38,840 nt of DNA, from positions 1 through 38,840 of the forward strand of contig OMJO01000018.1 of assembly GCA_900299395.1 (NCBI GenBank), in the 5' to 3' direction. Under the pieces are notes generated by a model that saw nothing but the letters and a program-made list of their open reading frames with translations, had not been told where the DNA came from and did no database searches. Both the position numbers and the translations under genes were made by a program. Shown here one piece after another: positions 3,985 to 27,356 of this stretch. Position 1 is the first letter of the stretch, and each line of letters starts with the position of its first letter. This DNA comes from a bacterium. Lineage in GTDB: Bacteria; Patescibacteriota; Saccharimonadia; Saccharimonadales; OMJO01.

Positions 3985-5058
3985 ATGATAACAAGCCTAA
4001 GGCTACAAAATTTTCGAACCTATATTGATGATACCTTCGAGTTTAATCCCGGGGTTACTATTATCGTTGGACCCAATGCAAGTGGAAAAACAAACCTACT
4101 AGAAGCGGTCTATGTCATGGCAAGAGGAACATCCTTTCGTGTTAAAGATGTAGACCTGATACATCACAATGCTCCTTGGTGTCGCCTTGACGCCGAGGTT
4201 GATTCCGGCGCAAGGGCTATTAAACTAAAGCGATCTGAAAATGGACTAGCCGACAAGCAGGTAATAATTAATACAGAAAAATTTTCTCGTTTTCCGTCAA
4301 GCAAGACATATCCTGTCGTCCTATTTGAACCAAACCATCTGCAGTTGTTCCACCTCGGGCCCGAAGCAAGAAGAGACTATGTTGATGATTTGGCCGAACA
4401 GTTGTTCTCTGGTTACGCACAGACAAGGTCTCACTATAAGCGAGTTTTGGCTCAGCGCAACAAACTTCTCAAACTAAACCCGAAAGATATCCATCAACAG
4501 ATGTTCGTGTGGAATATCAGATTAAGTGAATTGGGTGGTCGTATTGCCGGTATACGAAATGAAACCATAGAGGAGATCAATAAAAACCTTACCGAATTAT
4601 ACGGGCAGCTATCCCATGCAAAGAAAAGTGTGACAGGAAGATATATATCAACAATCCCCATCGATCAGTATAGTAGCCAGTTGCTTCATCGGCTTGAGTC
4701 TGATGTGCCGCGCGAGATTCAACGGGGGTACACTTTGTATGGTCCTCATAGAGATGATTTTATTGTGGAGTTAGGGGATCATGACGCCCAAGAAACTGCT
4801 TCACGGGGTGAAATCAGAACCATACTACTTGCCCTCAAAATATTAGAACTAGGCTTGATAGAAAAAAAGACCGGCAAAACACCATTATTACTACTGGATG
4901 ATGTGTTTAGTGAGCTTGATGGCGTTCGGCGGCAGGCGCTTACGGAAGTGATAGCGAAACACCAGACTTTCATCACAACAACCGATGCCGACATTGTCGT
5001 CCAGCACTTCCTTGATCGGTGCTCGATTATTCCGCTTGGCAGTAAAATCTCAGCGTAG
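3985..5058 (+). CDS. recF: DNA replication/repair protein RecF
   Basis: MITSLRLQNFRTYIDDTFEFNPGVTIIVGPNASGKTNLLEAVY, ...RGEIRTILLALKILE...LLLDDVFSELD. Confidence 0.93.
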   Translation: MITSLRLQNFRTYIDDTFEFNPGVTIIVGPNASGKTNLLEAVYVMARGTSFRVKDVDLIHHNAPWCRLDAEVDSGARAIKLKRSENGLADKQVIINTEKFSRFPSSKTYPVVLFEPNHLQLFHLGPEARRDYVDDLAEQLFSGYAQTRSHYKRVLAQRNKLLKLNPKDIHQQMFVWNIRLSELGGRIAGIRNETIEEINKNLTELYGQLSHAKKSVTGRYISTIPIDQYSSQLLHRLESDVPREIQRGYTLYGPHRDDFIVELGDHDAQETASRGEIRTILLALKILELGLIEKKTGKTPLLLLDDVFSELDGVRRQALTEVIAKHQTFITTTDADIVVQHFLDRCSIIPLGSKISA

Positions 5059-6582
5059 AAAATTGGTGATGGTGTAGCCTTGGGGAGGCAAACTCAGTTT
5101 AGTAAGTTCTTGCTGAATGTCATTATTCACTTGCCGTTTTGTGGCAGGGTCGTAGTCTAGTTCGCCCGTAGCATTGGGTACCAATGCACCATAGTTTGGC
5201 GATAGGTAGATGTAGCTCCGATATACAGAAACATCATTAAGCGCTTGCGATTCGGCGAGGGCTGTAATCTTTTTATCAAGCTCATTACTTGTGTCTGCGG
5301 TGGCAGGATTGATAGCGAGCGCTATTTTTTTGCCATTCTCATTCGTGAGCGTCAACACATAACCATCAGCAGTTTTTTCTGCATCATTGAGTGAGTATGA
5401 GCCGTATCGATACTCTGCAAACCCTTCACCGTTTTTTAGATCTATCCTCAAACTATCCCCTTTTCTCACTGCTACCACTTCCTGGCCCAATGACAAAACA
5501 CTGACGACGTTATTAATATGCAGTGTTTTTTTAAGCTCGCCTGAGTCAATAGCAAACACAGACAAGCCGGTGCTATCAACGGCGCAGATATACTCACTAC
5601 AGAAACTCACTTTTTGGTAATCGTTCTTTGAGCTAAAGTGCACAGTCTCTGGAGAACTAACAATAATCTCACTTCCAGGCTTGGTGTTATTGGTAGGCTG
5701 CTTGCCATAGAGAAACACTGTTTTGTTATCTTTGGCATCCGAAGTGAGCAGGATTAAGCCCTTGCTCTTTGGAGCTGGTTGAGTCATCTTACTTGCTTTA
5801 CCTGATAGGTTTGCCAATTGGAAGCTATCTCCTTCCCCTTGTGGCATAAACACGAGACTACCTTCTGAATACAAAAGACCGTATGTCATGTTTTCGTTAA
5901 GCTCACCTACGGGTATTCGCCGTGTAACTTTCAGATTGTCCCTAAGCACATACAGTATGTGGCTTACCTGTGCATCTTTGGCTTCCTCGCCCTCATCACC
6001 AACACTTAATTGAACAAGAGCGACAGTTCCTTCCTTAGTCTGGGCCATTCCTTCAATAAGCCCCCGTTCATTATTGCTTGCCACCATTTGTGTGTAGGTA
6101 GCTTGGGTGGCTGTAGCGGGTACGTGCTGGTTAATGGCGCCGAAATCTCCCCCGCAGTTGTATGAATATAACTTTCCCGAAATAAGTTGGAAACACGAGG
6201 CTGGGTTATTACCTACGAACGTTCTTTCTCTCTCTTTCTGCATTGGTAGAACAACAGATGTTGTGCCAAAAAAACCACCCGATCTAACGATCTTAAAACC
6301 GTTCATCTCGTCTTGTCTTGCCATGATCTCAAAGTTGCCACGCTTCACGAGCCGTTTGATAGAAGCGCCACCACTGACAGTTTGTGTCTTGTTAGACTTT
6401 TGATCAGTCAATACGTATTCGTACATGCCATCCTTGCCACCACTTGCTTCAATGGTAATGAATGACATTTGACTAACCCAATACAGGGCTCCCAATACGG
6501 CCACAAGGATTAGGCCGATGATCAATCGTCGTAAAAGGCGATTCGGCTGATTGAGCGTAGTATACGTGTTGTTATCTAGCAT
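5050..6582 (-). CDS. Single-pass membrane-anchored protein with large extracytoplasmic region; last gene of the T4SS-like operon
   Basis: 510 aa; N-terminal TM LLRRLIIGLILVAVLGALYWVSQ; 7 bp overlap with the upstream gene; converges with recF (9 bp overlap). Confidence 0.65.
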   Translation of the reverse strand: MLDNNTYTTLNQPNRLLRRLIIGLILVAVLGALYWVSQMSFITIEASGGKDGMYEYVLTDQKSNKTQTVSGGASIKRLVKRGNFEIMARQDEMNGFKIVRSGGFFGTTSVVLPMQKERERTFVGNNPASCFQLISGKLYSYNCGGDFGAINQHVPATATQATYTQMVASNNERGLIEGMAQTKEGTVALVQLSVGDEGEEAKDAQVSHILYVLRDNLKVTRRIPVGELNENMTYGLLYSEGSLVFMPQGEGDSFQLANLSGKASKMTQPAPKSKGLILLTSDAKDNKTVFLYGKQPTNNTKPGSEIIVSSPETVHFSSKNDYQKVSFCSEYICAVDSTGLSVFAIDSGELKKTLHINNVVSVLSLGQEVVAVRKGDSLRIDLKNGEGFAEYRYGSYSLNDAEKTADGYVLTLTNENGKKIALAINPATADTSNELDKKITALAESQALNDVSVYRSYIYLSPNYGALVPNATGELDYDPATKRQVNNDIQQELTKLSLPPQGYTITNFLR

Positions 6583-7877
6583 GATGCGGCACCTCCTCCT
6601 GAACCGCCCCCAGAACCTAAGCGAAGCAAAATATCACGAGCAAAATTCATGCGGTTTTGTATTTTTTCTGGTCCATCAGCTGAAATCTCGTAGTATTTGT
6701 GCCATATGAACGCCGCTTGGCCTGCGTCACTTTCCTGCTGGACTTTTGCCCAGTCGCCGCGGCCGGTTGCTTCTTTGTAGAGCCATTCCAACTGTGTGCC
6801 CATATCCCCATCTTTTGTGCTACGGCTGACGGCAAAATCGTGAAGTCCTTGTTGTCGACCTTTCGATGTCCACTGTGCCAACCCATACCCAGTGCTTCCG
6901 TCTATTCTCATGGTATCGTCGAGGCTAGAGGGTTTGCCCGCGACAGACGTTTCACCTCGTGAATTCGTGCCACCATACTGAACACGGCGTGGCTCAAAAC
7001 CCGACTCCGCCTGCAGGTTACCCATGATACCTGCTGCTTGCGGCGGTGTTAGTCCTTTTGATATCAAAAAGTTCCAAACCTTTTCAGCGTTATCCTTGCC
7101 CGCCAGAAGTGTGCAGCCACAACCGCCACCGCCACCCTTGCCACTAACTGCGTCAATGATGGCCGATGAAAGTTGTGGATAGGCGCCATGCACAAAGTCG
7201 CTGCTGCCAGGAATCGGCAAACCAGGCTGAATATTTAACGGGTCCTTATCGGCCCCAAAGATTGCCTTATAGCGGCTAATAACGGTATAGCCTTGTGACT
7301 GGGCGTTGTCGTAAATTACTTTATTGCGCGCACTCCAGGTAGCTGCGGTGTTCGCTCTCGTAGCACCGATGTCCACCCAGTAATACTTTGCATTTGGTGC
7401 GATAGCCTTGAGTTTCGTCATGAGGCTAACAAGATTTTGATTGAATGGATCATCAGTTGGGTTGGTGCCAAGCACTATAACTATAGTTCCGGCTCCACTA
7501 ATGACTGTTCTGTCACCATCTACAGCATTGAGGGCGCTTGTGCGCACTTCTGTGCCAGGCTGCGTAATTGAACGTCCGCTGTCGTGGTTCACAAAACTGG
7601 TACCCCCCACAGCAGTCTGCAGCTTACCCTCGATTCCATCACCACTGAGCCCTGTGCTAATGGAGTCACCGATTACATATGAGTTAGCACCGCCCTTTTG
7701 CCCCGTGCCAACATCACAGGTTGAACCGCTATGATCATTTGTCTTGTAGTGGACACTGTTGCGGTAAATGGATTCCAGATCAAGATCTGACAGTGCAGAT
7801 ACGAGTGGCGCGCTCACGCAAAGCAGTACAAAGTAGGAAACAGAAACAAGCCTCAGTAATTTTCCTATGTTTCTCAT
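6576..7877 (-). CDS. Secreted SGNH-hydrolase-like domain fused to phage-tail-lysozyme-like domain
   Basis: Signal-peptide-like N-terminus; SGNH blocks GDSISTG / VLGTNPT / DFVHG; then NAEKVWNFLISKGLTPPQAAGIMGNLQAESGFEP...STGYGLAQWTSKGR typical of phage-tail lysozymes; ATG at 7877 forms ATGA overlap with the upstream stop. Confidence 0.75.
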   Translation of the reverse strand: MRNIGKLLRLVSVSYFVLLCVSAPLVSALSDLDLESIYRNSVHYKTNDHSGSTCDVGTGQKGGANSYVIGDSISTGLSGDGIEGKLQTAVGGTSFVNHDSGRSITQPGTEVRTSALNAVDGDRTVISGAGTIVIVLGTNPTDDPFNQNLVSLMTKLKAIAPNAKYYWVDIGATRANTAATWSARNKVIYDNAQSQGYTVISRYKAIFGADKDPLNIQPGLPIPGSSDFVHGAYPQLSSAIIDAVSGKGGGGGCGCTLLAGKDNAEKVWNFLISKGLTPPQAAGIMGNLQAESGFEPRRVQYGGTNSRGETSVAGKPSSLDDTMRIDGSTGYGLAQWTSKGRQQGLHDFAVSRSTKDGDMGTQLEWLYKEATGRGDWAKVQQESDAGQAAFIWHKYYEISADGPEKIQNRMNFARDILLRLGSGGGSGGGAASC

Positions 7878-10800
7878 TGTCCTGTCCCACATCTGCTTGG
7901 TGTATCAAGTGGATCCCAGTGCCAGGATTCGTTTGAATACTGTTTAATGTGATAGGTCTCGGCGTTGTTGTACAGCCATGTCCAAACAGGGCTTGAGGGG
8001 TCACGGGCACGGCCGGAGCAACTGGTTGAACTGGTCCCTTTGAGGTGTGTTCCACTGAAGTCGATAGCTAATCCCATCTGGTGTGGGGAGTACCCAGGTC
8101 GCGCAACAAAACTACCATCACAAGTGCCACCACAAAGGTCGGTCTGGTGGGCATTAGTCCTAAAGGAGCTTTCGGCGTGTAAGCCAACGCCTGCTGCGTT
8201 TGCAGCTTGCACAAGTGCAAACCAGGCCCCAGACACGCGCGAGTTTACCAGTGCCTGACCATTAGCCCCCTCGACGTACCATTTGCCCCCGGGCTGACTT
8301 TCTTCACTTGAACTTTTGAGGTTAGGAAGTGCACACAAGCGAATCATAACCTTAACCCCGTCATGATAGCCTTCCTGAGGCTGGGCGATAGGCGTGGTAC
8401 CATACGCGCACGGTACATTGGTAGAATCCGCAAACATGTCTCCTACAATATCTGTGCCTGTGTTTCCGGTGCTCGGTCCACTGCCGCCCGTTGGGGTTCC
8501 CAGTTCTTCGGCAGGAAGTAGGCTATCGTCAAAAATAGCTCCTGCACTACCCACTGCGGCATCTAATAATAGACATGGGTTTTCGCTGTTGTGTACATCC
8601 ATTCCTGTATCTGGATCAATGCTCACATCGTTTGCCCAGTCTTTATTTTTCTGGGCACAATAGCTTTCCGTCAACGTCGATGGGTCGGTATTGACTGCAG
8701 CACCATTGGGGTCGTAGCCGTATTGCGGAATACCAAACGGGTCATCCTGGCTAGCGGCGGCGACTCGGTTTGTGCCAAACATACTAAACATTTTTGAAAA
8801 CGGGTTAATAAGGCCAGCGAATGAATGTTGTATGGCGGCAGTCTGACTTATAGGCATGGCCATGGCAAGCTGCGACACCATCGAATACGAGCTGTTTGTA
8901 TCAAACATACGAGCAAAAAATGGTTGTGACTGGAATTTCATTTTACGCTGGGCTTCCTGTTCGGACTGAATCTGCATAACGGTTGCGGTGGATAGTCGTT
9001 TACCCCCTAGTCCATATTGGGCGTAGCTTGACCCCGCGGCATCTGCTCCACCGGCCAACATATTAAAGCTACGAGCACCACTCATGTTGTCGGATATAGG
9101 TGATGGGATAAAGTAGGTGGCGACGGCCGTAAAGACTTCCTGGGCTTTTGCTCCCATCCATTCCTTCAATGGATCGAGAATGAATCCAAATGGTTTGAGT
9201 AGGAGGTCAATCGCACTGCCAGCTAGACCCTGGGCTTTGTCCCATACCCAGCCAGCTGAGTTATTCCATTGGTCGGCAAGGAATTTTAGTGGTGCCAGAG
9301 GGCCATTATTGAACAGATTAGATAATTCGGTGAGGAAGTTACTGACCAATAAACTTTCCTCGGGACAGATTAACTTTCCGACAGGGATAAGGCTACCATT
9401 GTCACAGGTGTAGTGCCCCGCTTCACTCGCTGGCGCAGCGGCAAACGCACTGGGCAAGAGTGAATCAAATGCTGTTTTCTGTGATGAACTGCCCATGAGA
9501 TTACTGTAGAGGGGGCTGTTCTCGGCCGATTCACCGTTTTTTGTATTATTCCCTAGCATGTTCACAAAAGATCCAGTCAAATCGGCTGTGGTATCGCCTG
9601 CCTTCTGCTCATCAGCGTGAGATCGGGCCAACATATAGTAACTAACCATCGCTGTCGAATTGAGCACAAATGCCCAGCGTTTAATCTTTGGTCCGGCACT
9701 GGCTGTTGTCTCTATAATGTTTGCAATGGTATGTATCCAACCAACGACGGGTACTGTTTTAGAGGCCGCATCGGCAATTTCTTTATTCAGAACAGTTTCA
9801 ATAATGTAGTTCATTAGCCCATTCTCGGATATTTTTATTGAGGCATCCGCTATTTTTTGGACAGTATCCTCGGTATATTGTTGGCCGCGCTTTTCCAGAT
9901 AATCACGGACCTGTTGCTCAAGTTTGTCTCGACGCTCATTGTCGTTACCGTCTGCCGAAGAGGGGGCATCATTACAGCCGCTCGACACAATACAAGAAAA
10001 AGCAAAGCCTAACATATCACTATGTGGCTCCACGACTCGACGAATAACCTGTAGCTTCGCTGCCTCTTGTTTTTTGTCTGCCCAGTCCGCTATTTTGTCT
10101 CTTCCATCGCACGCAAACATACAGCGTTTGATGCCATACTTTCGTTCGAGCAAATGGCCCACCTTGAAGCGGTACATTACCCGTCTAAACTTTGTCTCTC
10201 CATCCAATGCCTCAGTAATCTTGGCGCGTATGGTTGCCCGAGATGCCTGCGGCATATCATTGATATCAAAAATTGGTATTTGGCCAGGGGCCGACTTTAG
10301 TACGGCTTCACCAACCCCCGGAGCTTTTAGATAATAGTTTGTGCCTCGCTTTTCAAACTCAATGCCGTATTTGGTGGCGAGCTTATTCTCTAATTTGTCC
10401 TCACGCCACGCGCGGAACAATTTCTCCACCTTCCCTTCACCGACAATGTTGTCGACACAGTCTTTATTGATACGGGTGCTTGTACAACCAGGTTTGTTCA
10501 TGGCAGTCAGGACGTGTTCACTGACATACTTTTGTAAAAGCTTCTGTGTGTATTTCTCGACTGCTGATTCGGAGGTGGAAAAGAATTTGTTTTGCAGGTT
10601 CTCAACAATATGCACCAGTTTTAACGGTATTAGCGACATCATAATCGTGACGATAATACTAACAACACCGGCTGTAATGCCCCCACCTAAGAGTACTCGC
10701 CTGCGGTTTAGGCCATTAAGGGTGGACTCGAAACGTCGAATACCAGTTGCTTCTTCTTGTTTGAAGCCTGGCCCAATTTGGTCTAGGGCGTTATCTAGTT

Positions 10801-11002
10801 GGCTGGCTTCGGTGGAGTCACCCTTTGAGTTTGGGCTTTCAGCACCTTCCTGTTCTGCCGACTGCAGGGCATCAGAATCCATTGCCGGCGCACTATAATC
10901 ACGCTCAAGATCAGCTATTTCCTTTGCGCGATCATCATCGGACATATCCAAGTCGTCATAGGAGCCTGGTTTTTTGACTTTTTCTTCGTCATAGACAGCC
11001 AC
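7874..11002 (-). CDS. Large membrane protein with C-terminal VanY-type D-alanyl-D-alanine carboxypeptidase domain, T4SS-associated
   Basis: 1042 aa; TM RVLLGGGITAGVVSIIVTIMMSLIPL; C-terminal SPHQMGLAIDFSGTH and ESWHWDP match the LAS/VanY SxHxxGxAxD...HW zinc-site pattern. Confidence 0.75.
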   Translation of the reverse strand: MAVYDEEKVKKPGSYDDLDMSDDDRAKEIADLERDYSAPAMDSDALQSAEQEGAESPNSKGDSTEASQLDNALDQIGPGFKQEEATGIRRFESTLNGLNRRRVLLGGGITAGVVSIIVTIMMSLIPLKLVHIVENLQNKFFSTSESAVEKYTQKLLQKYVSEHVLTAMNKPGCTSTRINKDCVDNIVGEGKVEKLFRAWREDKLENKLATKYGIEFEKRGTNYYLKAPGVGEAVLKSAPGQIPIFDINDMPQASRATIRAKITEALDGETKFRRVMYRFKVGHLLERKYGIKRCMFACDGRDKIADWADKKQEAAKLQVIRRVVEPHSDMLGFAFSCIVSSGCNDAPSSADGNDNERRDKLEQQVRDYLEKRGQQYTEDTVQKIADASIKISENGLMNYIIETVLNKEIADAASKTVPVVGWIHTIANIIETTASAGPKIKRWAFVLNSTAMVSYYMLARSHADEQKAGDTTADLTGSFVNMLGNNTKNGESAENSPLYSNLMGSSSQKTAFDSLLPSAFAAAPASEAGHYTCDNGSLIPVGKLICPEESLLVSNFLTELSNLFNNGPLAPLKFLADQWNNSAGWVWDKAQGLAGSAIDLLLKPFGFILDPLKEWMGAKAQEVFTAVATYFIPSPISDNMSGARSFNMLAGGADAAGSSYAQYGLGGKRLSTATVMQIQSEQEAQRKMKFQSQPFFARMFDTNSSYSMVSQLAMAMPISQTAAIQHSFAGLINPFSKMFSMFGTNRVAAASQDDPFGIPQYGYDPNGAAVNTDPSTLTESYCAQKNKDWANDVSIDPDTGMDVHNSENPCLLLDAAVGSAGAIFDDSLLPAEELGTPTGGSGPSTGNTGTDIVGDMFADSTNVPCAYGTTPIAQPQEGYHDGVKVMIRLCALPNLKSSSEESQPGGKWYVEGANGQALVNSRVSGAWFALVQAANAAGVGLHAESSFRTNAHQTDLCGGTCDGSFVARPGYSPHQMGLAIDFSGTHLKGTSSTSCSGRARDPSSPVWTWLYNNAETYHIKQYSNESWHWDPLDTPSRCGTGQ

Positions 11003-11014
11003 GTTCAGCTATCC

Positions 11015-12934
11015 TCATCTCCCCGGGGTGAGCCGGTTAGTTAGGTCTATGGTGCCCTGCGGCTGCGCCACGCCACCTTGCTGGATTTGCTGAACTTGCT
11101 GTGGGTTGGTAGTGATAAGCTGCATTTCGCTCGGGCTGGCAGTAACTTGAATGTGTACATGGTTTTGCCCGGCAAAGAACAAGCCTTGGCCGACCGGGAA
11201 CTGGCTCAAACGCTTCTTTTCCTCACTGGTAAGTTTGAAAACATCTGCCAGCACATCAACGGCAGAAGAAGATTGCTTAAGGAGAATTTGCATGCTGGCG
11301 TTAGCCACGATCGCCCGGCCCATACGGCTACCCATAAAGTCCTCGACATCCTGAGTGATGGTAGTAATGCCAAGGTTGTATTTACGGGCGCGTTTAGCCA
11401 GGCTGAAGAGGAAGTTGGCAGAGTCTTCATACTTCATGAGCTGCCAGGCTTCGTCCACCACCAGAATACGCTTCTTTTGGTCGCTCTTTGTCTTGTTCCA
11501 GATGAAGTTCAGTACGATGTACATGGCTACCGGGCGAAGTTCGTCCTCGAGGTCGCGTACGTTAAAGACCACCAACGGATTGTTGATGTCGATGTTACTT
11601 TGCTGCGAGAAGATGCCGGCGAATGTCCCAGAGGTATATTTGCGGAGTCTTTGAGCTAGTTGCGGACCGGTGCCACCCATATGCAGCAGTGTGTCGTACA
11701 GGTCGTTGATTGTCGGCGGTGGTGATTTATGGGTGAGGGGGTCATTCGTGATACCCGCCTTGGCGTAGGTTTCGATAAGTGCAGCGTCAAGATCTGCCTC
11801 TTCGACTGGCGTGAGCGCCGGAGCAATGATGCCCGCTTGTCCACCACTCGCAGCCATCTGGGCTTGTGCGCCACCCATCATCAAACGAAGTAGCCCGTGG
11901 AGCGTAATGAGGTTACTGCGCAATGCGTTGTCCGCTTCTTCGGTGTCTACAACCTGTGGTAGATCAAACGGGTTGATGCGCGTGTTGGAGTTTAGGCTTA
12001 GGCGTACATACGCACCACCAACGGCATCTGCCATGCGTTGGTACTCATTCTCGGGGTCGATAATGAATATCTCGGTACCAAACATGAGGCTACGAAGGGC
12101 CTCGAGTTTAACCGTGAATGATTTACCGGCACCAGACTTAGCAAACACCACCGAGTTGCCGTTTTCTAGACTAAACCGGTCAAAAATAACGAGCCCAGAG
12201 TTATGCATGTTGATGCCGTACAAGATGCCATTGTCCTGGCTGAGGTCTGCCGAGGTAAATGGGAAGCTCGTGCTAAGGGCACCGGTGTTCATGTTGCGTC
12301 GGATTTGCAGCTGGTCGCTAAATTGTGGAACGGTGCTGTTGAGTCCTTGTTCTTGCTGAGAGGTAGCCGGCTTAGAGTAGACCAACTGTTGACCTAGCAT
12401 AGACTCAACTTTGTGTGCAATAAACTCAAGCTCATCCGTGGAAGAGGCGTAGATAGTAAAGTACAAACCAAAACGGAAAAATCGTTCCTCTCCGACTTGT
12501 AGCTTGTCGCGCATTTCTTCAGCGTCAATGATCGCTGCCTGCTTACCTGGGTCACGCACTCGGCCTTTTTCTGCGTCTATTTGAATGCCAGCTTCGAGTT
12601 GACCCACCTTTTTGCGCAGGTTTTCTAAAACAACCTGGCTCTCCACAGGGTAGATAAACATAGATAAGTCCATCACTTCATCGATGTTAACCATGCTACT
12701 CAGCCAGCCGGTAAATACCTGCCGCGGATAGCCGTAGACGTAGTATGTCCGTGCGTAACGTGTGCCAATCTGGAAATGAGTGCCAGAAAACTCAATTGAA
12801 CTCGGCGAGATAAAGTCACGGAGTGCGGTGATACCCTTTTGGAAGGCGAGATTTACTTCTTGCTGCTCGCGTATTTGCTGCTGTTGGGCAAGTGCTACTG
12901 GATCAAGTTGTTCTTTCTTCTTGCGGCCTATCAT
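11015..12934 (-). CDS. virB4: VirB4/TraC-like type IV secretion ATPase
   Basis: Walker A FAKSGAGKSFTVKLEALRS, IIDPENEYQRMADAVGG, Walker B RILVVDEAWQLMKYEDSANFLFSLAKRARKYNLGITTITQDVEDF. Confidence 0.88.
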   Translation of the reverse strand: MIGRKKKEQLDPVALAQQQQIREQQEVNLAFQKGITALRDFISPSSIEFSGTHFQIGTRYARTYYVYGYPRQVFTGWLSSMVNIDEVMDLSMFIYPVESQVVLENLRKKVGQLEAGIQIDAEKGRVRDPGKQAAIIDAEEMRDKLQVGEERFFRFGLYFTIYASSTDELEFIAHKVESMLGQQLVYSKPATSQQEQGLNSTVPQFSDQLQIRRNMNTGALSTSFPFTSADLSQDNGILYGINMHNSGLVIFDRFSLENGNSVVFAKSGAGKSFTVKLEALRSLMFGTEIFIIDPENEYQRMADAVGGAYVRLSLNSNTRINPFDLPQVVDTEEADNALRSNLITLHGLLRLMMGGAQAQMAASGGQAGIIAPALTPVEEADLDAALIETYAKAGITNDPLTHKSPPPTINDLYDTLLHMGGTGPQLAQRLRKYTSGTFAGIFSQQSNIDINNPLVVFNVRDLEDELRPVAMYIVLNFIWNKTKSDQKKRILVVDEAWQLMKYEDSANFLFSLAKRARKYNLGITTITQDVEDFMGSRMGRAIVANASMQILLKQSSSAVDVLADVFKLTSEEKKRLSQFPVGQGLFFAGQNHVHIQVTASPSEMQLITTNPQQVQQIQQGGVAQPQGTIDLTNRLTPGR

Positions 12935-13878
12935 CGTAGTTCCTTGTCGAGATTAGGCTGCGGAGCGGCGCCTTGACCCTTGGTGATAACAGGAGCGGTC
13001 AAATCGTCGAAGTTCTTGAGTTGCTGGCGGGTCGCTGTATCGGGATTGTAGGTGTCGTAGTAGAGCTCAATAAGTTCTTGCGTATCGAGCGGTAAACCCT
13101 GAATATCGCATTGTAGCAAACCAGCAAGCACAGCTTGTACGCGGTTTCGAAGCTCGTCTTTGGCTTTCACAAGGTCACCTTCATTGATGGTGACGTGCTG
13201 TTCCTTGCTCTGAAATAGATCCATGAGCCCCGTAAAAAAGCTCTTACTTGATACAAGTGCCTGCTTGGTCTCGGAAAGCGGGGAATATGGTATAACCAGG
13301 TAGAATCTTTTATCCATGATGTTTGTTTGGAGTGACAGATTGTCGATGTAACCAATGTAGTCTTCCATAAGTAATGCAAGCAACATGTTGTCGTGCTCGG
13401 AGCGAATCTTGTCGAGCTTTTCTATGTATGGGCGCAAGTCAACCTTTTGAGATCGTATGAATATCTGGATATCAAAATACAAGGAGTTCAGGAAGCCTTG
13501 ATATGCTGCTTCAACTGCTTCTCGCTCCTGAGGACTCATTAGGTCGAAGTTGATGGATTTGACCATGACGACCGATCGGAAGGACCCGTCGTTCATGATG
13601 ACAATTCCATCGCGAATCTCGGCAATTTGTAGCGTGTTTTGGGTGCTGTTCGGGTTGCTTCGTGCTCCTTTGACTGGCACGGCGCTGGCAGGTGAAACAG
13701 CAGCTTGCATACCTGGCTGTTGGGGAAATGGTGCCGGGGGCGCCGGCATTTGGGTAGCGGCTACTGCTGGCTGAGCGCCGTATGAGCCATATGGATTAGG
13801 GGCTGTGGGCTGCAGCGGAACAGCCGCAGGATTATTCTGCGGAATGTTTGGTAATTGGTTGTTCGCGTTTGGATTCAT
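12931..13878 (-). CDS. TraC/VirB4 N-terminal-domain-like protein (no ATPase motif)
   Basis: IVIMNDGSFRSVVMVKSINFDLMSPQEREAVEAAYQGFLNSLYFDIQIFIRSQ resembles VirB4/TraC N-domains; ATGA overlap with virB4; Pro/Gln-rich N-terminus. Confidence 0.6.
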   Translation of the reverse strand: MNPNANNQLPNIPQNNPAAVPLQPTAPNPYGSYGAQPAVAATQMPAPPAPFPQQPGMQAAVSPASAVPVKGARSNPNSTQNTLQIAEIRDGIVIMNDGSFRSVVMVKSINFDLMSPQEREAVEAAYQGFLNSLYFDIQIFIRSQKVDLRPYIEKLDKIRSEHDNMLLALLMEDYIGYIDNLSLQTNIMDKRFYLVIPYSPLSETKQALVSSKSFFTGLMDLFQSKEQHVTINEGDLVKAKDELRNRVQAVLAGLLQCDIQGLPLDTQELIELYYDTYNPDTATRQQLKNFDDLTAPVITKGQGAAPQPNLDKELR

Positions 13879-13916: not shown

Positions 13917-15029
13917 CTAATGTAGCTTTACGACTACTTCATCTTGTGGTGGCTCCGTGTCTCGCATTTTGTCTGCTTGGCGAGCGATTGTGGCCACGTT
14001 CAGGTCGTCATTATTTGCAAGGTTAAGTATAGCAGGATCAGGGGTTGGTGTCGAAGGTGATTGTGCTTTTGGTGGTACGTTTTTTGATGGCTTATGGTGG
14101 TGTTTCGACCGAAGGGATGAGGATACTGGCTCAACAACTCGTAAGTGATAGTTGGTGGGGTCTGGGTCATCCTCCTGTTCGTGGATCTTTTTTAGGAATG
14201 CTTGTTCGTCGGCAGCAGTGATTGGGGCGGCTGGAACAGTTGGCTGGGTGTACTCGGTGGCTCCGGGAGCGATCACTGAGGGGCTGGCAAATGCCGCTGT
14301 GCCAGGTGCGGTTGGCTGTGGAGCAGAGTTCATAAACCAATAATTGGCTGGGGTTTGTGCGGCTTGGCCAGTTGCAGCTTGCTGCATACGGGAAAAAGCT
14401 TCTTTGCGATGTGCCTGTGTCGAGGCGGCAATCATTTCATTGAAATGCTGCGCAGTCGGGCTGCTCTTTTCATCCAATACGTCATCCATGGGTGTAACGT
14501 CATAGTTAGGCACATCCTGAGGTATGGTGGTTGGGTCAATCAGTCGGTCTGAATCTGCTTGGTCAAGCACGTAAGAGGGCTGACTAAAGAGGTTGACGCT
14601 TACATTCTTGATTGCCCAGCCGCGACTATCGATAGTGTTAGCCAGGGCCTGCAGACGACTTTTTACCTCGGTCTGGCTTAATCCGTTAGTGAGCTGTTTT
14701 TCGATACGTTTTGGTGCAGTTATAGTCACAAGATCTTTCATGCCACTTTGATCCCAGATGCGTCGGCGGGGCTTCAAAAAGAACCGAACCTTCGCCAGCA
14801 GCCATATTTCCGTTGGCTGGTCTTTGCCCCATGGAAACGCGAGAAAGCCACTAAATAGTATGATTGGCGAAAACACAGCAGCAATGACCCAAGTGCCTTT
14901 AGTCAGGCCCAAAATGCTTATGTAAAGCCCCACTGCTGTAACCGCACCGTAGATAAACTGTTTAAGGGTCAAAGGGCCCAGGAATTTATCCTCGGCTTCG
15001 ATGTCCTGGAGTACCTTATATGTTGCCAT
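13917..15029 (-). CDS. PrgI family T4SS inner-membrane protein with long C-terminal tail
   Basis: MATYKVLQDIEAEDKFLGPLTLKQFIYGAVTAVGLYISILGLTKGTWVIAAVFSPIILFSGFLAFPWGKDQPTEIWLLAKVRFFLKPRRRIWDQSG. Confidence 0.75.
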   Translation of the reverse strand: MATYKVLQDIEAEDKFLGPLTLKQFIYGAVTAVGLYISILGLTKGTWVIAAVFSPIILFSGFLAFPWGKDQPTEIWLLAKVRFFLKPRRRIWDQSGMKDLVTITAPKRIEKQLTNGLSQTEVKSRLQALANTIDSRGWAIKNVSVNLFSQPSYVLDQADSDRLIDPTTIPQDVPNYDVTPMDDVLDEKSSPTAQHFNEMIAASTQAHRKEAFSRMQQAATGQAAQTPANYWFMNSAPQPTAPGTAAFASPSVIAPGATEYTQPTVPAAPITAADEQAFLKKIHEQEDDPDPTNYHLRVVEPVSSSLRSKHHHKPSKNVPPKAQSPSTPTPDPAILNLANNDDLNVATIARQADKMRDTEPPQDEVVVKLH

Positions 15030-15037
15030 AAACAGCC

Positions 15038-18000
15038 TTACCTATCCCGTCTGTTAAGGCTTTGTTCTGGGACGCCAGTGCCAGGCTCACTACCAGGGGC
15101 TTTGTACTCTCCGGCGAACATATCAGCGACTTGTACAAAAGCATTGGCCTCTTCCATAACACGTCCTGGTGCACCAGCGCCAATTGCTCTGCCGCCTCCA
15201 CCCGTTCGTGTAGTGCCACCAGTCGCCCCTGCCGCACCACGGATTGGTACCTCAACCTCAGTGCCGTAGTCATCGGTTACTACAGGAGCAGGAATGGGTG
15301 CGCCACCTTCCCCGGCCGGTATTACCGAGCCACCACCAAATGAGGCGGATTTTGTAGCATGCGCGATTCGGCTTGCACGCTGCAGTATCTCCGCAGCCCT
15401 GTCTCGAGATTCATCGAGTGCTTGCTTTCTGGCGGCCCTCCAAGCATCTTCTCCGGCTTTATCCGCCGCAAACTCACCTCGTTGAGGTAATGCGACCCCT
15501 GTAATGTCACCATCAACAATCTGCTTCGCTTTACGGACCTCTTCAGACATGCTGGTCCATGTATCAGCATTTTGCATGAGCATCTGGTAGTTGCCCTGCT
15601 TCTCGTCTATTTCTCGCATGAGGGTTAGGCCGTCTAGCTCCATACCCTTACCGGCGCCCTTCCAGCCGTAGTGTTTCCATTGGCGGTTTGCGTTTTGCTT
15701 CTGGAAACCGGCACCTTTCCATACGCCTTGCGCTTGCTTGTCATTCATGGCGAAGCCGCCTGATCCTTCACCTAGGCCACCGTCAACAAGCCGGCCGTAG
15801 TTGCTAACCAGGTAATCTTGTTCTTCTTGGGTGGCGGCTTTGTCCATTTCGTGACCAAGTGACCACTGCAGGGCCATCTGGTTGCCACCCCACCTAGAAT
15901 GTGCCGCGTCGACGGACGCCTCCTTTACCCAAGCACCACCTAGTGTACGGAATTCACGAGCCCCGGTTTCCTTATCTATCCTCCAGTGTTTACCCTCACC
16001 GTCAGCTTGGGCGAGTGCCCATGCTTTGTTGACGGTCAGTGCCCGTTGTTCGGTATCATCACCATTATTGTTCTGTAGATCTTGTAACTTATTCTCAGCT
16101 TCGCGTTGGGCAGCAATGGCTTCTTCGAGGTTATAGCCACCCACGCGGGCACGTGCAAACCGCGCAGCTGCTCCCCGGATCCCACGCTGAGATGCTGCGG
16201 TTTCAAGTCCACGGTACTGACGATCACGAGCAGACAGAGTGCGGGCTCTCCAGTCTTTCTTTGCGTACTCTTTGCGTTTTTCAAACATGCCGTTGAGCTT
16301 ACCGGCGCCACCAGTTATTGCGGCGTGGATACTACCAATAGCGCCTCCGGCGAACTTGAAGGCAAACGGAATCATGAGTAGGGGCAAGAACTGCAATACA
16401 AAGGCGACCACGGCTGCTAGAACATTATTGATCTGCCCATCAACGCCTGCGACACCGTTAGCCTTCAGGATAGTAACCGACATGATGTCGGCAATTGCGA
16501 AGATAATAATGACAATTGGGTAAACCAGTAGTGTTTTAAAGAGGAGTTCCCACCACTTTTTAAAGTACCGCTCGGTATTTGGTAAACAGTAAAGCGCAAA
16601 GGCAAACGGACTAATGATGATCAGGAACAATATGAGACCGCGCCGAATAACAAGGGTCACAAACACTCCAATAATGCTGAGAATAACAGGAAGAAGAGTG
16701 AGTAAACCAACAAACAGCCCTGCCTGAATGGCTGCACCACCACCAAGGACAAGAGCGCCAAGCACCCCTGCAATACCGGATGCGCCAAGCATGAGTCCTA
16801 ATACCCCCAGCCCAATACCCCCAAGTGACTGGCCAATACTCAGATGGAAGCCCGTGCCTATACTACTCCTAATCGGCGAGATCATCAGCTGTCCGATACC
16901 CTTGCCAACGATGTTAGTGACGTCCACCATAAAGGCAACAATGTATACGGATAGGTTGATCAAGATGGCTGCCGTCAGGATGCGCGGCAGTACCTTTTTG
17001 GCAGTGTAGGCATCAATGAGTCCACCGCCGATTGTCTGTCCGAAAACAATGACGATCATCGCTATTACCAACAGCACGTTACCGTAGATGCGGAAGCCCG
17101 ACCATATTTGATAGGTAGGGTCGCTACTATCGGTACTCACGGGGGATGACTGCAGGAACGGGGTAATAAACTCGTTAAACAGCCAGTCCGAGAGGTCGGC
17201 AATGCCATTAAAGACTGGGCAGAGGATCCACGATAATGGGTTGTTCCAGTTTTTTTCACACGTTACGTTTTGGTCGCCACTGCCAGTGTTGCCAACGCCG
17301 GGAGTGCCGCCACCCGCACCTGGTGTTTTGGTGGCGTTTGCAACAGAACCCAGAGGGTAAGACTTGGCGGCCACTTTGCTGTTACTGCTGTCGTAATCAA
17401 CATTTTGCTCTTGCGAGGGCCGCGTACCCCAGAGCTCGCAGCTATTTGGGAAAACAGGCTGCAATATGTCATGGTCGGGGTTGGTTATGTCACTTAGCCC
17501 ATCTCGCCCATTTTGCTTGTTGTCCTCCATACGATAAATTTTGTGCGACGTAAAGTCAGTGCTGGCAATAATGTAATCACCGCAACCACCTCCTGATGTC
17601 CTCACAAAGAGCTGTTTGCTTTGGCTTGCAACACGCGTTTGAGCAAAAATCCAGCCACTATCACCATCTACGCGCCGGATAGTTTGGCTATCGAGCCACT
17701 CATACCATATGTCGACATTACCTTTAGCTATGTGGGTTGATTGAGCTAATACGAGTGGGTCAATCTGAGTGTTTCTACATTGTCCAACCCCACCGGGCTT
17801 GTAGTCGATGTCAACGGAGTATGGGGTTATCTTGCCGTTTACGAAGTCGGCACCAATGTTGTAGGAAGCATAGAAACTAACATGACCATAACAATCACTG
17901 CCTTGAACTGCATAATCGGGCTCCTTGTCGCCGATGTTTTGATCAAAAAACGTGTATTTTGTGCCACCTATTGTCACTTCTAAATGAGCGTGGTCAATAA

Positions 18001-18142
18001 AATTGTAAGAGGCTTTCTTAATATCGTCCTCAGATGATGGGGCAGCAGCGGCTACTTTCTGGGGGTGGAATAAACTAAAAGTCAGGGTGCTCAAAAACAC
18101 CAAGACGCCAACCACCAGAATCAATCGTTTGCGAGCATTCAT
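15038..18142 (-). CDS. VirB6/TrbL-like polytopic membrane protein with signal peptide and long hydrophilic C-terminus
   Basis: Signal-peptide-like N-terminus; many hydrophobic segments between roughly aa 350 and 630 (e.g. IYGNVLLVIAMIVIVFGQTIGGG, LVIRRGLILFLIIISPFAFALYCLPNTERYFKKWWELL); first gene of the minus-strand T4SS-like operon. Confidence 0.7.
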   Translation of the reverse strand: MNARKRLILVVGVLVFLSTLTFSLFHPQKVAAAAPSSEDDIKKASYNFIDHAHLEVTIGGTKYTFFDQNIGDKEPDYAVQGSDCYGHVSFYASYNIGADFVNGKITPYSVDIDYKPGGVGQCRNTQIDPLVLAQSTHIAKGNVDIWYEWLDSQTIRRVDGDSGWIFAQTRVASQSKQLFVRTSGGGCGDYIIASTDFTSHKIYRMEDNKQNGRDGLSDITNPDHDILQPVFPNSCELWGTRPSQEQNVDYDSSNSKVAAKSYPLGSVANATKTPGAGGGTPGVGNTGSGDQNVTCEKNWNNPLSWILCPVFNGIADLSDWLFNEFITPFLQSSPVSTDSSDPTYQIWSGFRIYGNVLLVIAMIVIVFGQTIGGGLIDAYTAKKVLPRILTAAILINLSVYIVAFMVDVTNIVGKGIGQLMISPIRSSIGTGFHLSIGQSLGGIGLGVLGLMLGASGIAGVLGALVLGGGAAIQAGLFVGLLTLLPVILSIIGVFVTLVIRRGLILFLIIISPFAFALYCLPNTERYFKKWWELLFKTLLVYPIVIIIFAIADIMSVTILKANGVAGVDGQINNVLAAVVAFVLQFLPLLMIPFAFKFAGGAIGSIHAAITGGAGKLNGMFEKRKEYAKKDWRARTLSARDRQYRGLETAASQRGIRGAAARFARARVGGYNLEEAIAAQREAENKLQDLQNNNGDDTEQRALTVNKAWALAQADGEGKHWRIDKETGAREFRTLGGAWVKEASVDAAHSRWGGNQMALQWSLGHEMDKAATQEEQDYLVSNYGRLVDGGLGEGSGGFAMNDKQAQGVWKGAGFQKQNANRQWKHYGWKGAGKGMELDGLTLMREIDEKQGNYQMLMQNADTWTSMSEEVRKAKQIVDGDITGVALPQRGEFAADKAGEDAWRAARKQALDESRDRAAEILQRASRIAHATKSASFGGGSVIPAGEGGAPIPAPVVTDDYGTEVEVPIRGAAGATGGTTRTGGGGRAIGAGAPGRVMEEANAFVQVADMFAGEYKAPGSEPGTGVPEQSLNRRDR

Positions 18143-18275: not shown

Positions 18276-19052
18276 ATGGTAAAAACATCAAAACTTACGC
18301 AAAAGATACTCATCGCCCTCTCATTTTTGCTGGGACTATTTATTGTAGGCATGCCCCTCTCTGCTGCTGCTATACCCGGTCGCGATGATTACAGTAAGAA
18401 CTTTTTATATAAGCCGGATCCAAAATGTCTGACTGGGTCAAAAGGAGCAGACTTTAATGTGGTGCACGGCCGCAATGATATGACGGTGTACGCTTGTATT
18501 CGTGTCCGTGGTGATAACGTCGGCTATTCTATAAGCCCTTTGCCCCCACCCAACCAAGTAATGCAAAACAATGCGTGCGGCGAGACGTTCATGAGTGGCT
18601 CAAGTGTTGAGGAGTACACCGTGAATGGTGGTGGATTTGGACTGCTTTGTGTCATTGTGACAGATTCCACCAAGTGGGACATGACCGACTACAAAACACA
18701 GAACGAGAATCGCACAGGTAGTTATGTAACTGGTGATGCTCAAGGAAGTGGCGATACATGTGGCGAGGGTGATAGTGCTGTTCACACCTCCATCAACATC
18801 GGGTGTCGTGGGCAAGGAAATGGCATCTTGGATCTTACCTTCGCGCTGATTCGATTCCTCTCCATCGGAGTTGGCATCGTGGTGATAGGGTCAATTGTGG
18901 TGGCGGGCATTCAGTACACAGCGTCGCGGGGAGACCCCAGCGCTACTGCCAAGGCTTTGGCGCGGATTAACTCGACGGTGATCGCTCTCATCATTTACAT
19001 CTTTAGCTATGCTATATTGAACTGGCTTATTCCAGCGGGGATATTCAAATGA
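18276..19052 (+). CDS. TrbC/VirB2-like two-TM protein with N-terminal Cys-containing ectodomain
   Basis: Signal peptide, ~150 aa ectodomain with six Cys, then FALIRFLSIGVGIVVIGSIVVAGIQYTASRGDPSATAKALARINSTVIALIIYIFSYAILNWL. Confidence 0.65.
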   Translation: MVKTSKLTQKILIALSFLLGLFIVGMPLSAAAIPGRDDYSKNFLYKPDPKCLTGSKGADFNVVHGRNDMTVYACIRVRGDNVGYSISPLPPPNQVMQNNACGETFMSGSSVEEYTVNGGGFGLLCVIVTDSTKWDMTDYKTQNENRTGSYVTGDAQGSGDTCGEGDSAVHTSINIGCRGQGNGILDLTFALIRFLSIGVGIVVIGSIVVAGIQYTASRGDPSATAKALARINSTVIALIIYIFSYAILNWLIPAGIFK

Positions 19053-19438
19053 TGGATTTCTTATATCGATTTGCGGCAAGTTGTGGGGGTGGCAATCTTC
19101 TTGGCTTCCCTTCTTGGTACAAGTATCTTCCTGGCACTACCGAAATGGCCAAGGACGGTTCAGGTGTAGATATAGGTACGGTCTGCACACCAAAGATCCA
19201 GTCAATTAATGACGTATGGCTCATTGTGGCTGCTGTTGTTGAGATTTTGCTTCGTGTTGCTGCACTCGCCGCTATCGCGCTGATTGTATGGGGTGGCATC
19301 CAATTTGTGATGAGCCAAGGAGAACCCGATAAAGCTGCCAAAGCCAGGTCAACTGTTATCAATGCGATCGTTGGTCTTGTGATTGCCGTAACGGCAACAG
19401 TATTAGTTTCGTTTGTAGCAGGACAATTTAAGCCATGA
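19049..19438 (+). CDS. TrbC/VirB2-like pilin-type protein
   Basis: LRVAALAAIALIVWGGIQFVMSQGEPDKAAKARSTVINAIVGLVIAVTATVLVSF; ATGA overlap with the preceding gene. Confidence 0.65.
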   Translation: MMDFLYRFAASCGGGNLLGFPSWYKYLPGTTEMAKDGSGVDIGTVCTPKIQSINDVWLIVAAVVEILLRVAALAAIALIVWGGIQFVMSQGEPDKAAKARSTVINAIVGLVIAVTATVLVSFVAGQFKP

Positions 19439-19761
19439 GTTTATTCTTGATCACCCATACGCTCGCTGCTGTCGTCCAGAATTGTGACCCAAATCAAGCA
19501 GATGACGGTTCTTGTCAAACAATTTTCCCGGCCATTAAGGGCACGCCAGATAACGTGAAGATTGCCTTGCAGATTGTTTTTGGGGTGATCGCAGTCGTGA
19601 CTGTCATATATATCGTTCTGGCGGCCATTCGTTATCAGATGAGCCTTGGTGATCCTGGCGCCACCGCCAAACTGCGGAACGCCATCATTTATGCAGCTAT
19701 TGGCTTGGTGATTGCACTGAGTGCGGAGATTATTGTTAGTTTTGCGCTAGGGAGGGTTTAA
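19435..19761 (+). CDS. TrbC/VirB2-like pilin-type protein
   Basis: IVFGVIAVVTVIYIVLAAIRYQMSLGDPGATAKLRNAIIYAAIGLVIALSAEIIVSF; ATGA overlap. Confidence 0.65.
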   Translation: MSLFLITHTLAAVVQNCDPNQADDGSCQTIFPAIKGTPDNVKIALQIVFGVIAVVTVIYIVLAAIRYQMSLGDPGATAKLRNAIIYAAIGLVIALSAEIIVSFALGRV

Positions 19762-19762
19762 G

Positions 19763-20161
19763 ATGCTCAAACGACTTATTGTTGTCATGTTGTTGGTCGC
19801 GACCTTGCTTCCGCTTAGCGTGCCCTCTCGGGTACGAGCCGTCGATGTTATTGATCCGGTTTGCACCAACCCAAACGCCGTCGAAAAACCAAAGATATGT
19901 AATGATAATCAGCCAAATGCTCCAGAGAATCCGATCGTTGGCCCCAATGGCATCCTAACCAAAGTTGTTAATATTCTGTCGCTTATCGCAGGTATACTCG
20001 CTGTTTTTACCATTATCATTGGGGGTGTCAAAATGATTGTCAGTAACGGCGATAGTAATAGTGTTGCTTCTGCCAAACGTACGGTGTTATATGCCGTCAT
20101 TAGTCTGGCTATTGTGGCGTTTGCCCAAGTTGGCGTTTATTTCATATTGAACAAATTATAA
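19763..20161 (+). CDS. TrbC/VirB2-like pilin-type protein
   Basis: Signal peptide; ILSLIAGILAVFTIIIGGVKMIVSNGDSNSVASAKRTVLYAVISLAIVAFAQVGVYFI. Confidence 0.7.
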   Translation: MLKRLIVVMLLVATLLPLSVPSRVRAVDVIDPVCTNPNAVEKPKICNDNQPNAPENPIVGPNGILTKVVNILSLIAGILAVFTIIIGGVKMIVSNGDSNSVASAKRTVLYAVISLAIVAFAQVGVYFILNKL

Positions 20162-20175
20162 GAAAAGGAGAGCAT

Positions 20176-20607
20176 ATGCGCATACGTCTATGGATTACCG
20201 CAGTTACCGTGCTTGTTTTGTCGCTGTTAATAGCAGCACCAGCACGTACATCTGCGCTGTTTGAAAATGCCAAGGACGAGGCCTGTAATGGTATTAACTT
20301 GGACACTGGTACTGCTGGATGTTCGGATACAAAAGGCAGTGTTAATGGTATTCTCGCTACGGTAATAAATATCTTTTCACTCGTAGTGGGGATAATAGCT
20401 GTAATTATGATCATTATCGGTGGTCTAAAGTATGTGACGTCCCAAGGAGACAGTAGTGCCATATCGGGTGCCAAGAATACCGTGATTTATGCAGTGGTCG
20501 GTCTTGTGATTGTGGCGTTTGCCCAATTCATAGTTCGTTTTACGCTTAACAAGACAAAACCATTGCCCCAATGTTCTGCTGGCCAAACACAGAACTGCAC
20601 GCCCTAG
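20176..20607 (+). CDS. TrbC/VirB2-like pilin-type protein
   Basis: Signal peptide; VINIFSLVVGIIAVIMIIIGGLKYVTSQGDSSAISGAKNTVIYAVVGLVIVAFAQFIVRF; AAAAGGAG RBS. Confidence 0.72.
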   Translation: MRIRLWITAVTVLVLSLLIAAPARTSALFENAKDEACNGINLDTGTAGCSDTKGSVNGILATVINIFSLVVGIIAVIMIIIGGLKYVTSQGDSSAISGAKNTVIYAVVGLVIVAFAQFIVRFTLNKTKPLPQCSAGQTQNCTP

Positions 20608-20620
20608 ATAAAACAGGTTA

Positions 20621-20650
20621 TTGAAATTCGTGAAACCTTTATGGTATAAG
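20621..20650 (+). promoter_or_regulatory. Putative sigma70-type promoter for the last pilin-like gene
   Basis: TTGAAA 20621-20626, 18 nt spacer, TATAAG 20645-20650. Confidence 0.5.
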
Positions 20651-20681
20651 TAAGTCAGCATATAGATAAGAAAGGATAATC

Positions 20682-21098
20682 ATGATCCAAACACTAAAAA
20701 AATTCATCGCTAAGCTTTCGATTGCGACATTGCTCGTTGTGCCTGTTTTTGCACCAGCAATTGCGCACGCAGCAGATGTAAACGGTAGCCTTTGTGAAGG
20801 GGCAAACCTTCAAGTAGACGCCAAAGACTGTAACCAGAATGGCGACCCAAAGCAGAAAGTAAACGACCTGCTGACAACAGTCATCAACATCTTCTCACTT
20901 ATCGTGGGTATTATTGCAGTTGTTATGATCATCATCGGTGGTCTGAAGTACATTACTTCTGGCGGTGAATCGTCTAACATCACCGGTGCCAAGAACACCA
21001 TTCTCTACGCCGTTATTGGCCTAGTGGTGGTTGCGCTGGCGCAGTTTATCGTTCGTTTCGTACTCGTGAAAGTTACTCAAAGCGGCAACGGCAATTAG
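20682..21098 (+). CDS. TrbC/VirB2-like pilin-type protein (candidate major subunit)
   Basis: Signal peptide ending AIAHA-A; VINIFSLIVGIIAVVMIIIGGLKYITSGGESSNITGAKNTILYAVIGLVVVALAQFIVRF; own promoter and terminator. Confidence 0.72.
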   Translation: MIQTLKKFIAKLSIATLLVVPVFAPAIAHAADVNGSLCEGANLQVDAKDCNQNGDPKQKVNDLLTTVINIFSLIVGIIAVVMIIIGGLKYITSGGESSNITGAKNTILYAVIGLVVVALAQFIVRFVLVKVTQSGNGN

Positions 21099-26498: not shown

Positions 26499-27356
26499 AT
26501 GGTACCAATGGACGAGGTAAGTTTAGGACGACGCTTACAAAATGCGCGGAAGCAGGCAGGTTTGACACAACAGGAGCTGTGCCAAAAAGCAGACCTGAGC
26601 TATTCGACGTTGGCCAAGATAGAGCGCGGCGCTATCAAGGCACCCTCAATATTCACCATACAGAGCATTGCTACTGCACTTGGGGTGAGTCTGACCGATC
26701 TTATGGGAGACATTGGCCAGAAACCGGCGGTGAATGCCAAGAAACGCTCGAAAAGCGGCGTACGGTTTGTGTACTTCGACATCAACGGTTGTTTGGTGCG
26801 GTTTTTTCACCGAGCATTTACCAAAATTGCAGAAGAAACTGGCGCCCCTGCTGACATAATTGAATCGACTTTCTGGCACTACAATGACGCAGTCTGCCGG
26901 GGTGAGATGACACTCGAGGAATTTGATCAAATATTTGCCCAACACATAGGAGCGCCGCAGATAGATTGGCAACATTACTATCTGGAGGCAATCGATCCGA
27001 TTACCGAGATGGACGAGCTGCTGCGGTGGGCGGCTGAGAATTATTATGTGGGGCTGCTGAGCAACATTATGCCGGGGTTCATTGAGGCTATGCGCGCTCG
27101 TGAAATTCTGCCAAATGTCGACTACGCGGCAATCGTGGACTCTTCAACAGTAGGGGCGATTAAGCCTGAGCCAGAAATTTACACCATCGCGCAAGAAAAA
27201 GCTGGCGTATCTCCTTCCGAGATACTGCTGGTCGATGATTCTCGTGCTAACCTCATGGCCGCCGAAAAGATGGGTTGGCATGTCCTTTGGTTTGATGATT
27301 ACCGACCAGAAGAATCTGCCGTCAATATTCGTAACGTGTTAGAACCGGAGGCCTAG
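26499..27356 (+). CDS. XRE-type HTH regulator fused to HAD-superfamily hydrolase-like domain
   Basis: HTH: LGRRLQNARKQAGLTQQELCQKADLSYSTLAKIERGAIKAPSIFTIQSIATALGV; HAD: RFVYFDINGCLV ... LLSNIMPGF ... AIKPEPEIY ... ILLVDDSRANLMAAEKMGW. Confidence 0.87.
   Translation: MVPMDEVSLGRRLQNARKQAGLTQQELCQKADLSYSTLAKIERGAIKAPSIFTIQSIATALGVSLTDLMGDIGQKPAVNAKKRSKSGVRFVYFDINGCLVRFFHRAFTKIAEETGAPADIIESTFWHYNDAVCRGEMTLEEFDQIFAQHIGAPQIDWQHYYLEAIDPITEMDELLRWAAENYYVGLLSNIMPGFIEAMRAREILPNVDYAAIVDSSTVGAIKPEPEIYTIAQEKAGVSPSEILLVDDSRANLMAAEKMGWHVLWFDDYRPEESAVNIRNVLEPEA

Follow-up and report, generated by a model that had tools for sequence, protein, structure and literature searches.

Within the window (the whole stretch of 38,840 nt that was analysed, contig C18 of a 705 kb genome that is 89% complete), a T4SS operon carries in its wall-enzyme slot a gene for a predicted secreted protein, in which an SGNH hydrolase domain is joined to a phage-tail-type lysozyme. 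Peptidoglycan O-acetylation shields bacteria from lysozymes. We give about even odds (roughly 0.5) to the reading that this protein is the VirB1-type wall enzyme of the Saccharimonadia T4SS with an added esterase, the SGNH half stripping the acetyl groups that would block the muramidase. In the mechanism that we infer, the protein would, to judge from its N-terminus, be exported by Sec. Through Ser77–His235–Asp232 and Asn144, the SGNH half would cleave O-acetyl esters by hydrolysis, most likely those at C-6 of peptidoglycan MurNAc, and the tethered gp13-type muramidase (Glu296) would then cut the MurNAc–GlcNAc bond that the acetyl group otherwise blocks. Together with the VanY carboxypeptidase of the neighbouring protein, this would make a hole in the peptidoglycan layer at the secretion site. 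The layer needing de-acetylation would most likely be the wall of the bacterium carrying the epibiont.

The features of the locus are listed in Table 1. A preliminary description of this DNA had placed the gene at positions 6576–7877, inside a secretion operon, and both its limits and its setting agree with what is found. The longest form of the ORF (6576–7892, - strand) begins with an ATG at 7892 and encodes 438 aa; residue numbers follow this form. The ATG at 7877 is preferred as the start because it overlaps the stop codon of the upstream gene as ATGA, and at its 3' end the gene overlaps the downstream gene by 7 nt. All of the motifs quoted in that description are present (GDSIS, LGTNPT, DFVH, GKGGGGGCGC, GIMGNLQAESGFEP and GYGLAQW, the last at aa 335–341). 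Relatives in the same slot share the hydrophobic N-terminal segment, and many have a similar '..YYDP..C' segment at the position of the Cys59 segment. The NCBIfam scan found no family matching the SGNH–lysozyme protein. An AlphaFold model of the full protein from a single sequence had a pLDDT of 34 and was not used.

Table 1. Features of the SGNH–lysozyme gene, its T4SS operon and the second copy in the same genome (positions in the window unless a locus is named; residues in the 438-aa form)
Feature	Positions	Strand	Basis or remark
SGNH + phage-tail-type lysozyme ORF, complete, putatively secreted	6576..7877	-	433 aa from ATG at 7877
Probable Sec signal peptide (MRNIGKLLRLVSVSYFVLLCVSAPLVSA)	7794..7877	-	sequence inspection; hydrophobic N-terminal segment of slot relatives
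Short N-terminal segment with Cys59 (SDLDLESIYRNSVHYK...C)	7695..7793	-	alignment of slot relatives
SGNH/GDSL hydrolase domain	7143..7694	-	aa 67–250; held-out profile, AlphaFold, Foldseek
Block I GDS, predicted nucleophile Ser77	7662..7670	-	block alignment
Block II S105-G106-R107	7572..7580	-	Ser105 where OatA transferases have Val/Ile
Block III GTN, predicted oxyanion Asn144	7461..7469	-	block alignment
Block V DFVH, Asp232/His235	7188..7199	-	block alignment
Gly/Cys linker (GKGGGGGCGCTL)	7107..7142	-	motif GKGGGGGCGC at aa 251–260
Phage_lysozyme2 (gp13-type muramidase) domain	6618..7106	-	aa 263–425; Pfam and profile matches
Predicted catalytic Glu296	7005..7007	-	aligned with gp13 Glu45; motif GIMGNLQAESGFEP
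P510, membrane protein downstream of the wall enzyme	5050..6582	-	
Slot A neighbour, 1042-aa membrane protein	7874..11002	-	C-terminal VanY carboxypeptidase domain
VirB4-type ATPase	11015..12934	-	CD1110 family, above NCBIfam cut-off
VirB4 N-terminal part, TrsD-like	12931..13878	-	
PrgI-family protein	13917..15029	-	
Large VirB6-like membrane protein	15038..18142	-	weak TrbL/VirB6 match; position conserved
Six T4SS_pilin (PF18895) genes	18276..21098	+	array divergent from the operon
Second SGNH–lysozyme protein, same genome	L033 7138–9639 (G000:C7, ~9137–11638)		829 aa; away from the T4SS

The Pfam scan of the window protein gave no match to the SGNH half at E<1, Lipase_GDSL_2 included. Neither the SGNH sequence by itself nor a profile of its four-member subfamily gave more than chance matches in the PDB, so that the link to SGNH proteins becomes visible only with the wider family. 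A profile built from other Saccharimonadia SGNH domains, with the subfamily of the window protein left out, matches aa 67–250 with 101 bits, against 3.5 bits or less for 200 shuffles of the sequence. Lipase_GDSL_2 matches 18 of 21 family members at E<1, several of which exceed the curated cut-off. The best PDB match of the family profile is the catalytic domain of Staphylococcus aureus OatA (9e-19), followed by other GDSL proteins, PatB and Streptococcus pneumoniae OatA. An AlphaFold model of the SGNH half, made from an input of three sequences (pLDDT 74.9, pTM 0.78), has as its top Foldseek matches a GDSL lipase, OafB, PatB and TesA (TM about 0.6), and matches Ape1 weakly. On this profile and model evidence the N-terminal half (aa ~67–250) is an SGNH domain.

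Blocks I (GDS), II (Gly), III (GxN) and V (DxxH) follow one another in the SGNH order. Of 32 SGNH domains, 31 retain the nucleophile Ser and the Asn of Block III, and 29 retain the His of Block V; the domain at locus L005 has lost the His. In a GH3–lysozyme protein (L108, 11197–14217), the SGNH domain lacks both Ser and Asn (GDDI, LGTY), and the genome has an AT3 acyltransferase. This domain is probably a decaying or non-catalytic copy.

The other half of the protein matches PF18013 Phage_lysozyme2 at aa 267–421 (8.2e-34; 117 bits against a gathering score of 28.2), and a profile of 26 lysozyme relatives matches phi29 gp13 over nearly its full length (5.6e-26). By family, this half is a gp13-type muramidase. 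Glu45 of gp13 is the suggested catalytic residue (PMC10394673), and its counterpart, Glu296, is invariant in the lysozyme relatives (26/26). The SGNH fold and the lysozyme-like domain of the preliminary description stand, and neither of the two outcomes that it had set against its own reading, absence of an SGNH fold and loss of catalytic residues across orthologues, is seen.

At the start of the window, dnaA, dnaN and a RecF/SMC-N-like gene lie on the + strand. Genes on the - strand run in the order VirB6-like protein, PrgI, VirB4 N-terminal part, VirB4, 1042-aa VanY protein, SGNH–lysozyme protein and P510. The operon is the Patescibacterial T4SS of PMC12102498, and it is the ground for assigning the genome to Saccharimonadia. 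P510 has no significant Pfam or NCBIfam match; in many T4SS loci it is kept directly after the wall enzyme. In part of the group this T4SS is located near dnaA, and in Southlakia epibionticum the homologues of the peptidase and the lysozyme, which follow virB4 directly downstream, are reported to be essential (PMC12102498); the T4SS itself is essential for the epibiotic growth of this organism (PMC10633639). Of the features that mark VirB1-like proteins, the window protein has location in a T4SS operon, a signal-like N-terminus (by inspection) and a glycan-cleaving domain (PF18013). In pMRC01, a Lactococcus conjugative plasmid, trsD, a VirB4-like gene, one further gene and a phage tail tip lysozyme gene are found in the same order as here. 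By position, this identifies the lysozyme protein as the VirB1-type component.

The pairing of an SGNH domain with a peptidoglycan-cutting enzyme, first remarked upon for this gene, recurs in related genomes. The T4SS operon order is retained in the 39 related loci that were compared, and dnaN lies within the examined stretch in 34. In these loci the pair of genes that follows VirB4 makes up two adjacent slots with varying modules. SGNH is present in 28 loci and lysozyme in 27, with both in 16 and in a single ORF in 14, although these frequencies are not population estimates because the 39 loci were selected for holding SGNH or lysozyme. The SGNH step appears to be optional, since 11 of the 39 have lysozyme without SGNH. 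SGNH is also found with SLT transglycosylase (L097, L101, L113), glucosaminidase (L121), M23 (L097, L105, L115) and VanY. Other slot modules are GH3 (L098, L108, L117), amidase_3 (L093, L098), NlpC/P60 (L093) and C39 (L116). The SGNH domain mostly precedes the lysozyme, but follows it in L098 and L107, and lies on the neighbouring protein in L093 and L104.

The second SGNH–lysozyme pair in the same genome is 60% (SGNH) and 79% (lysozyme) identical to that of the window protein, and has LysM in front. A VanY/M15-like motif (SSDHYKGEAVDLAID...HIHVSF) lies ahead of this pair. The strongest evidence for an action of the SGNH domain on the wall is that the pair stays together and accompanies peptidoglycan enzymes. 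The repeated mixing of the same parts in relatives suggests a purpose-built tool for passing protected bacterial walls. A broader proposal is that the two genes form a shuffling toolkit, fitted to the wall chemistry that each host presents, in which one module serves specifically for de-O-acetylation and gives epibionts an answer to O-acetylated peptidoglycan; this is tentative, and we rate its chances as somewhat short of even. As one slot takes different wall enzymes across genera, the prediction is that module content tracks host wall chemistry.

Neither the SGNH–lysozyme protein nor the 89%-complete genome contains AT3 (PF01757), and a search of the same genome for MBOAT found none; at this level of completeness, an AT3 or MBOAT gene could sit in a gap. 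Among 100 relative genomes, AT3 is above the cut-off in 12 and MBOAT in one (G076). Where a T4SS–SGNH gene has been checked, AT3 occurs only in genome G093, the source of the degenerate L108 domain without Ser and Asn; this statement does not extend to G065, which has AT3 and an SGNH hit of unchecked context. In genome G031, a weak SGNH match away from the T4SS (C1:194698–196357) lies less than 300 bases from an AT3 acyltransferase gene, and the T4SS wall slot contains lysozyme and no SGNH. The match and its neighbour may be a true OatA-like pair.

If the SGNH half of the window protein is an esterase, its target would be a foreign wall, as the cell, so far as an incomplete genome can tell, seems unable to O-acetylate its own. 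The alternative that survives best is that the protein serves solely to open the peptidoglycan of the epibiont itself for assembly of the T4SS channel and pilus, like PrgK and TraG in Gram-positive conjugation, with the SGNH domain trimming esters of the cell's own wall or acting as a structural or binding module. The gene order equals that of a Firmicute conjugative plasmid, and VirB1 proteins are described as opening the wall locally while the T4SS is put together (PMC12102498). The genome also encodes peptidoglycan synthesis (five Mur ligase matches, with MurE within the window), which makes opening of its own wall possible. However, with no AT3 or MBOAT found, this wall should be free of acetyl groups to remove, and the conservation of the catalytic residues speaks against an SGNH domain with a structural role only. 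A role confined to the epibiont's own wall is considered unlikely.

Searching the genome contigs with the SGNH–lysozyme protein as single query gave two loci only, one of them in a betaproteobacterial MAG, and 10 of 196 genomes drawn across the phylum match, mostly from the same order. A search of viral contigs found no relatives of the full-length protein or of the SGNH subfamily; with the lysozyme half as query, it found 44 distant relatives. The phage (378 records) and plasmid (39) matches listed are to the lysozyme half only, and none covers 80% of the query. The betaproteobacterial locus (L031, 5839–7263) encodes a tandem SGNH–SGNH protein, 53% identical to the window SGNH domain and its closest homologue outside the class. 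Its neighbours are two AlgX-family genes and a gene with a polysaccharide-deacetylase domain. Its presence in this MAG may be due to gene transfer or to an error of binning.

Because this closest outside homologue adjoins two AlgX-type genes, the SGNH substrate might be another polysaccharide. More generally, it could be a host-wall ester other than O-acetyl-MurNAc, such as a mycolate ester or an acetyl or acyl group carried by arabinogalactan, teichoic acid or capsule, and many glycan esters do serve as substrates of SGNH enzymes (PMC9487903). Such a substrate is nevertheless improbable, as the OatA domains, which are specific to peptidoglycan, are the best relatives by sequence among solved structures, and the partner modules at related loci are peptidoglycan enzymes.

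The same resemblance to OatA, the top solved match, raises the question of direction, since the SGNH half could be an O-acetyltransferase that protects the epibiont's own wall from its secreted lysozyme. OatA obtains acetyl from its own AT3 domain. No such membrane domain was found in the genome, and the only checked T4SS–SGNH genome with AT3 has a degenerate SGNH domain. A Val or Ile at Block II position 5 of OatA promotes transfer, and replacement in SpOatA (V460A/G) reduces transferase activity 5- to 10-fold and slightly increases esterase activity (PMC5697884). Both the window protein and its paralogue in the same genome have Ser at this position. Val or Ile is found in 12 of 31 scorable relatives, so the family is not uniformly esterase-like. 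For the window protein, the lack of an AT3 or MBOAT partner, together with Ser105, favours an esterase, a preference that applies to this protein rather than to the family; a protective transferase here is very improbable. That the N-terminal half is no SGNH domain, its matches being due to chance or misreading, can be dismissed as next to impossible in spite of the silence of Pfam (E<1) and of the narrower PDB searches, given the held-out profile score against shuffles, the Foldseek matches to SGNH structures and the presence of all four blocks in the correct order.

Two family assignments were rejected. The window protein is not a plain OatA, as it has no AT3 membrane domain and has Ser105 in place of Val/Ile. 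The inserted beta-sandwich of Ape comprises residues 104–221 (PMC6174289); the SGNH domain here is contiguous, at about 185 aa, with no insert of that size, and is not of the Ape type.

Comparison with known systems reveals parallels for each part. The VirB1-like hydrolases of Gram-positive conjugation (PrgK, pIP501 TraG and TgaA) are likewise secreted (as is predicted here), multidomain and encoded in a T4SS operon, and pMRC01 has a phage tail tip lysozyme gene that is alike in lysozyme family and gene order. In known two-domain VirB1-like hydrolases, a CHAP-type peptidase accompanies the lytic glycosidase (PMC12102498). In the window protein, an SGNH partner replaces this peptidase, and a peptidase is found on the neighbouring protein. 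The SGNH domains of OatA (S. aureus 6vjp/6wn9, S. pneumoniae 5ufy/5ug1) are the closest solved sequence relatives and have the same block layout, including GRS/GRQ and LGTN, whereas the window protein lacks AT3, has Ser at Block II position 5 and is fused to a lysozyme. Ape1-type O-acetylesterases share the SGNH fold (a weak Foldseek match) and the proposed reaction, but the beta-sandwich insert is absent here and Ape itself is not fused to a muramidase. phi29 gp13 and the phage tail tip lysozymes (PF18013) share the lysozyme fold family and the catalytic Glu; gp13 has a C-terminal M23-like domain and acts at the phage tail tip, whereas here there is an N-terminal SGNH domain instead.

Each of the parts is already known by itself: lysozymes linked to a T4SS, acetylesterases of the SGNH type, and OatA domains. 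What appears to be new is a VirB1-type hydrolase with an added putative esterase. The SEML1_0006–0019 cluster of Southlakia epibionticum, also a T4SS with a pilin array, is essential on its host; the main texts (PMC10633639, PMC12102498) make no mention of an SGNH module or of shuffling. The literature search revealed no paper linking SGNH or O-acetylation to the Saccharibacterial T4SS, and no description of an SGNH domain in its wall slot; the structure-based annotations in the supplements of the Southlakia paper may already name the domain. SGNH hydrolases appear solely as lipid enzymes in PMC6031116.

These results bear on how Patescibacteria breach or connect to the host wall, in a group of which a single strain has been tested and proved to need its T4SS. 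The predicted esterase–muramidase fusion is a concrete, assayable part with named residues. If the reading is correct, a muramidase with a built-in de-acetylase would be a useful reagent for lysozyme-resistant walls.

Other genes in the window were also noted. A 673-aa, highly charged, Arg/Glu-rich protein (32973–34994, + strand), with no match in Pfam or NCBIfam, is encoded directly upstream of the MurE-like ligase. An XRE-type helix-turn-helix and a HAD-family hydrolase are combined in a single ORF (26499–27356, + strand). A dimethylargininase/arginine dihydrolase-like protein (37413–38282, - strand) is possibly related to arginine use, which has been reported to be important in Saccharibacteria.
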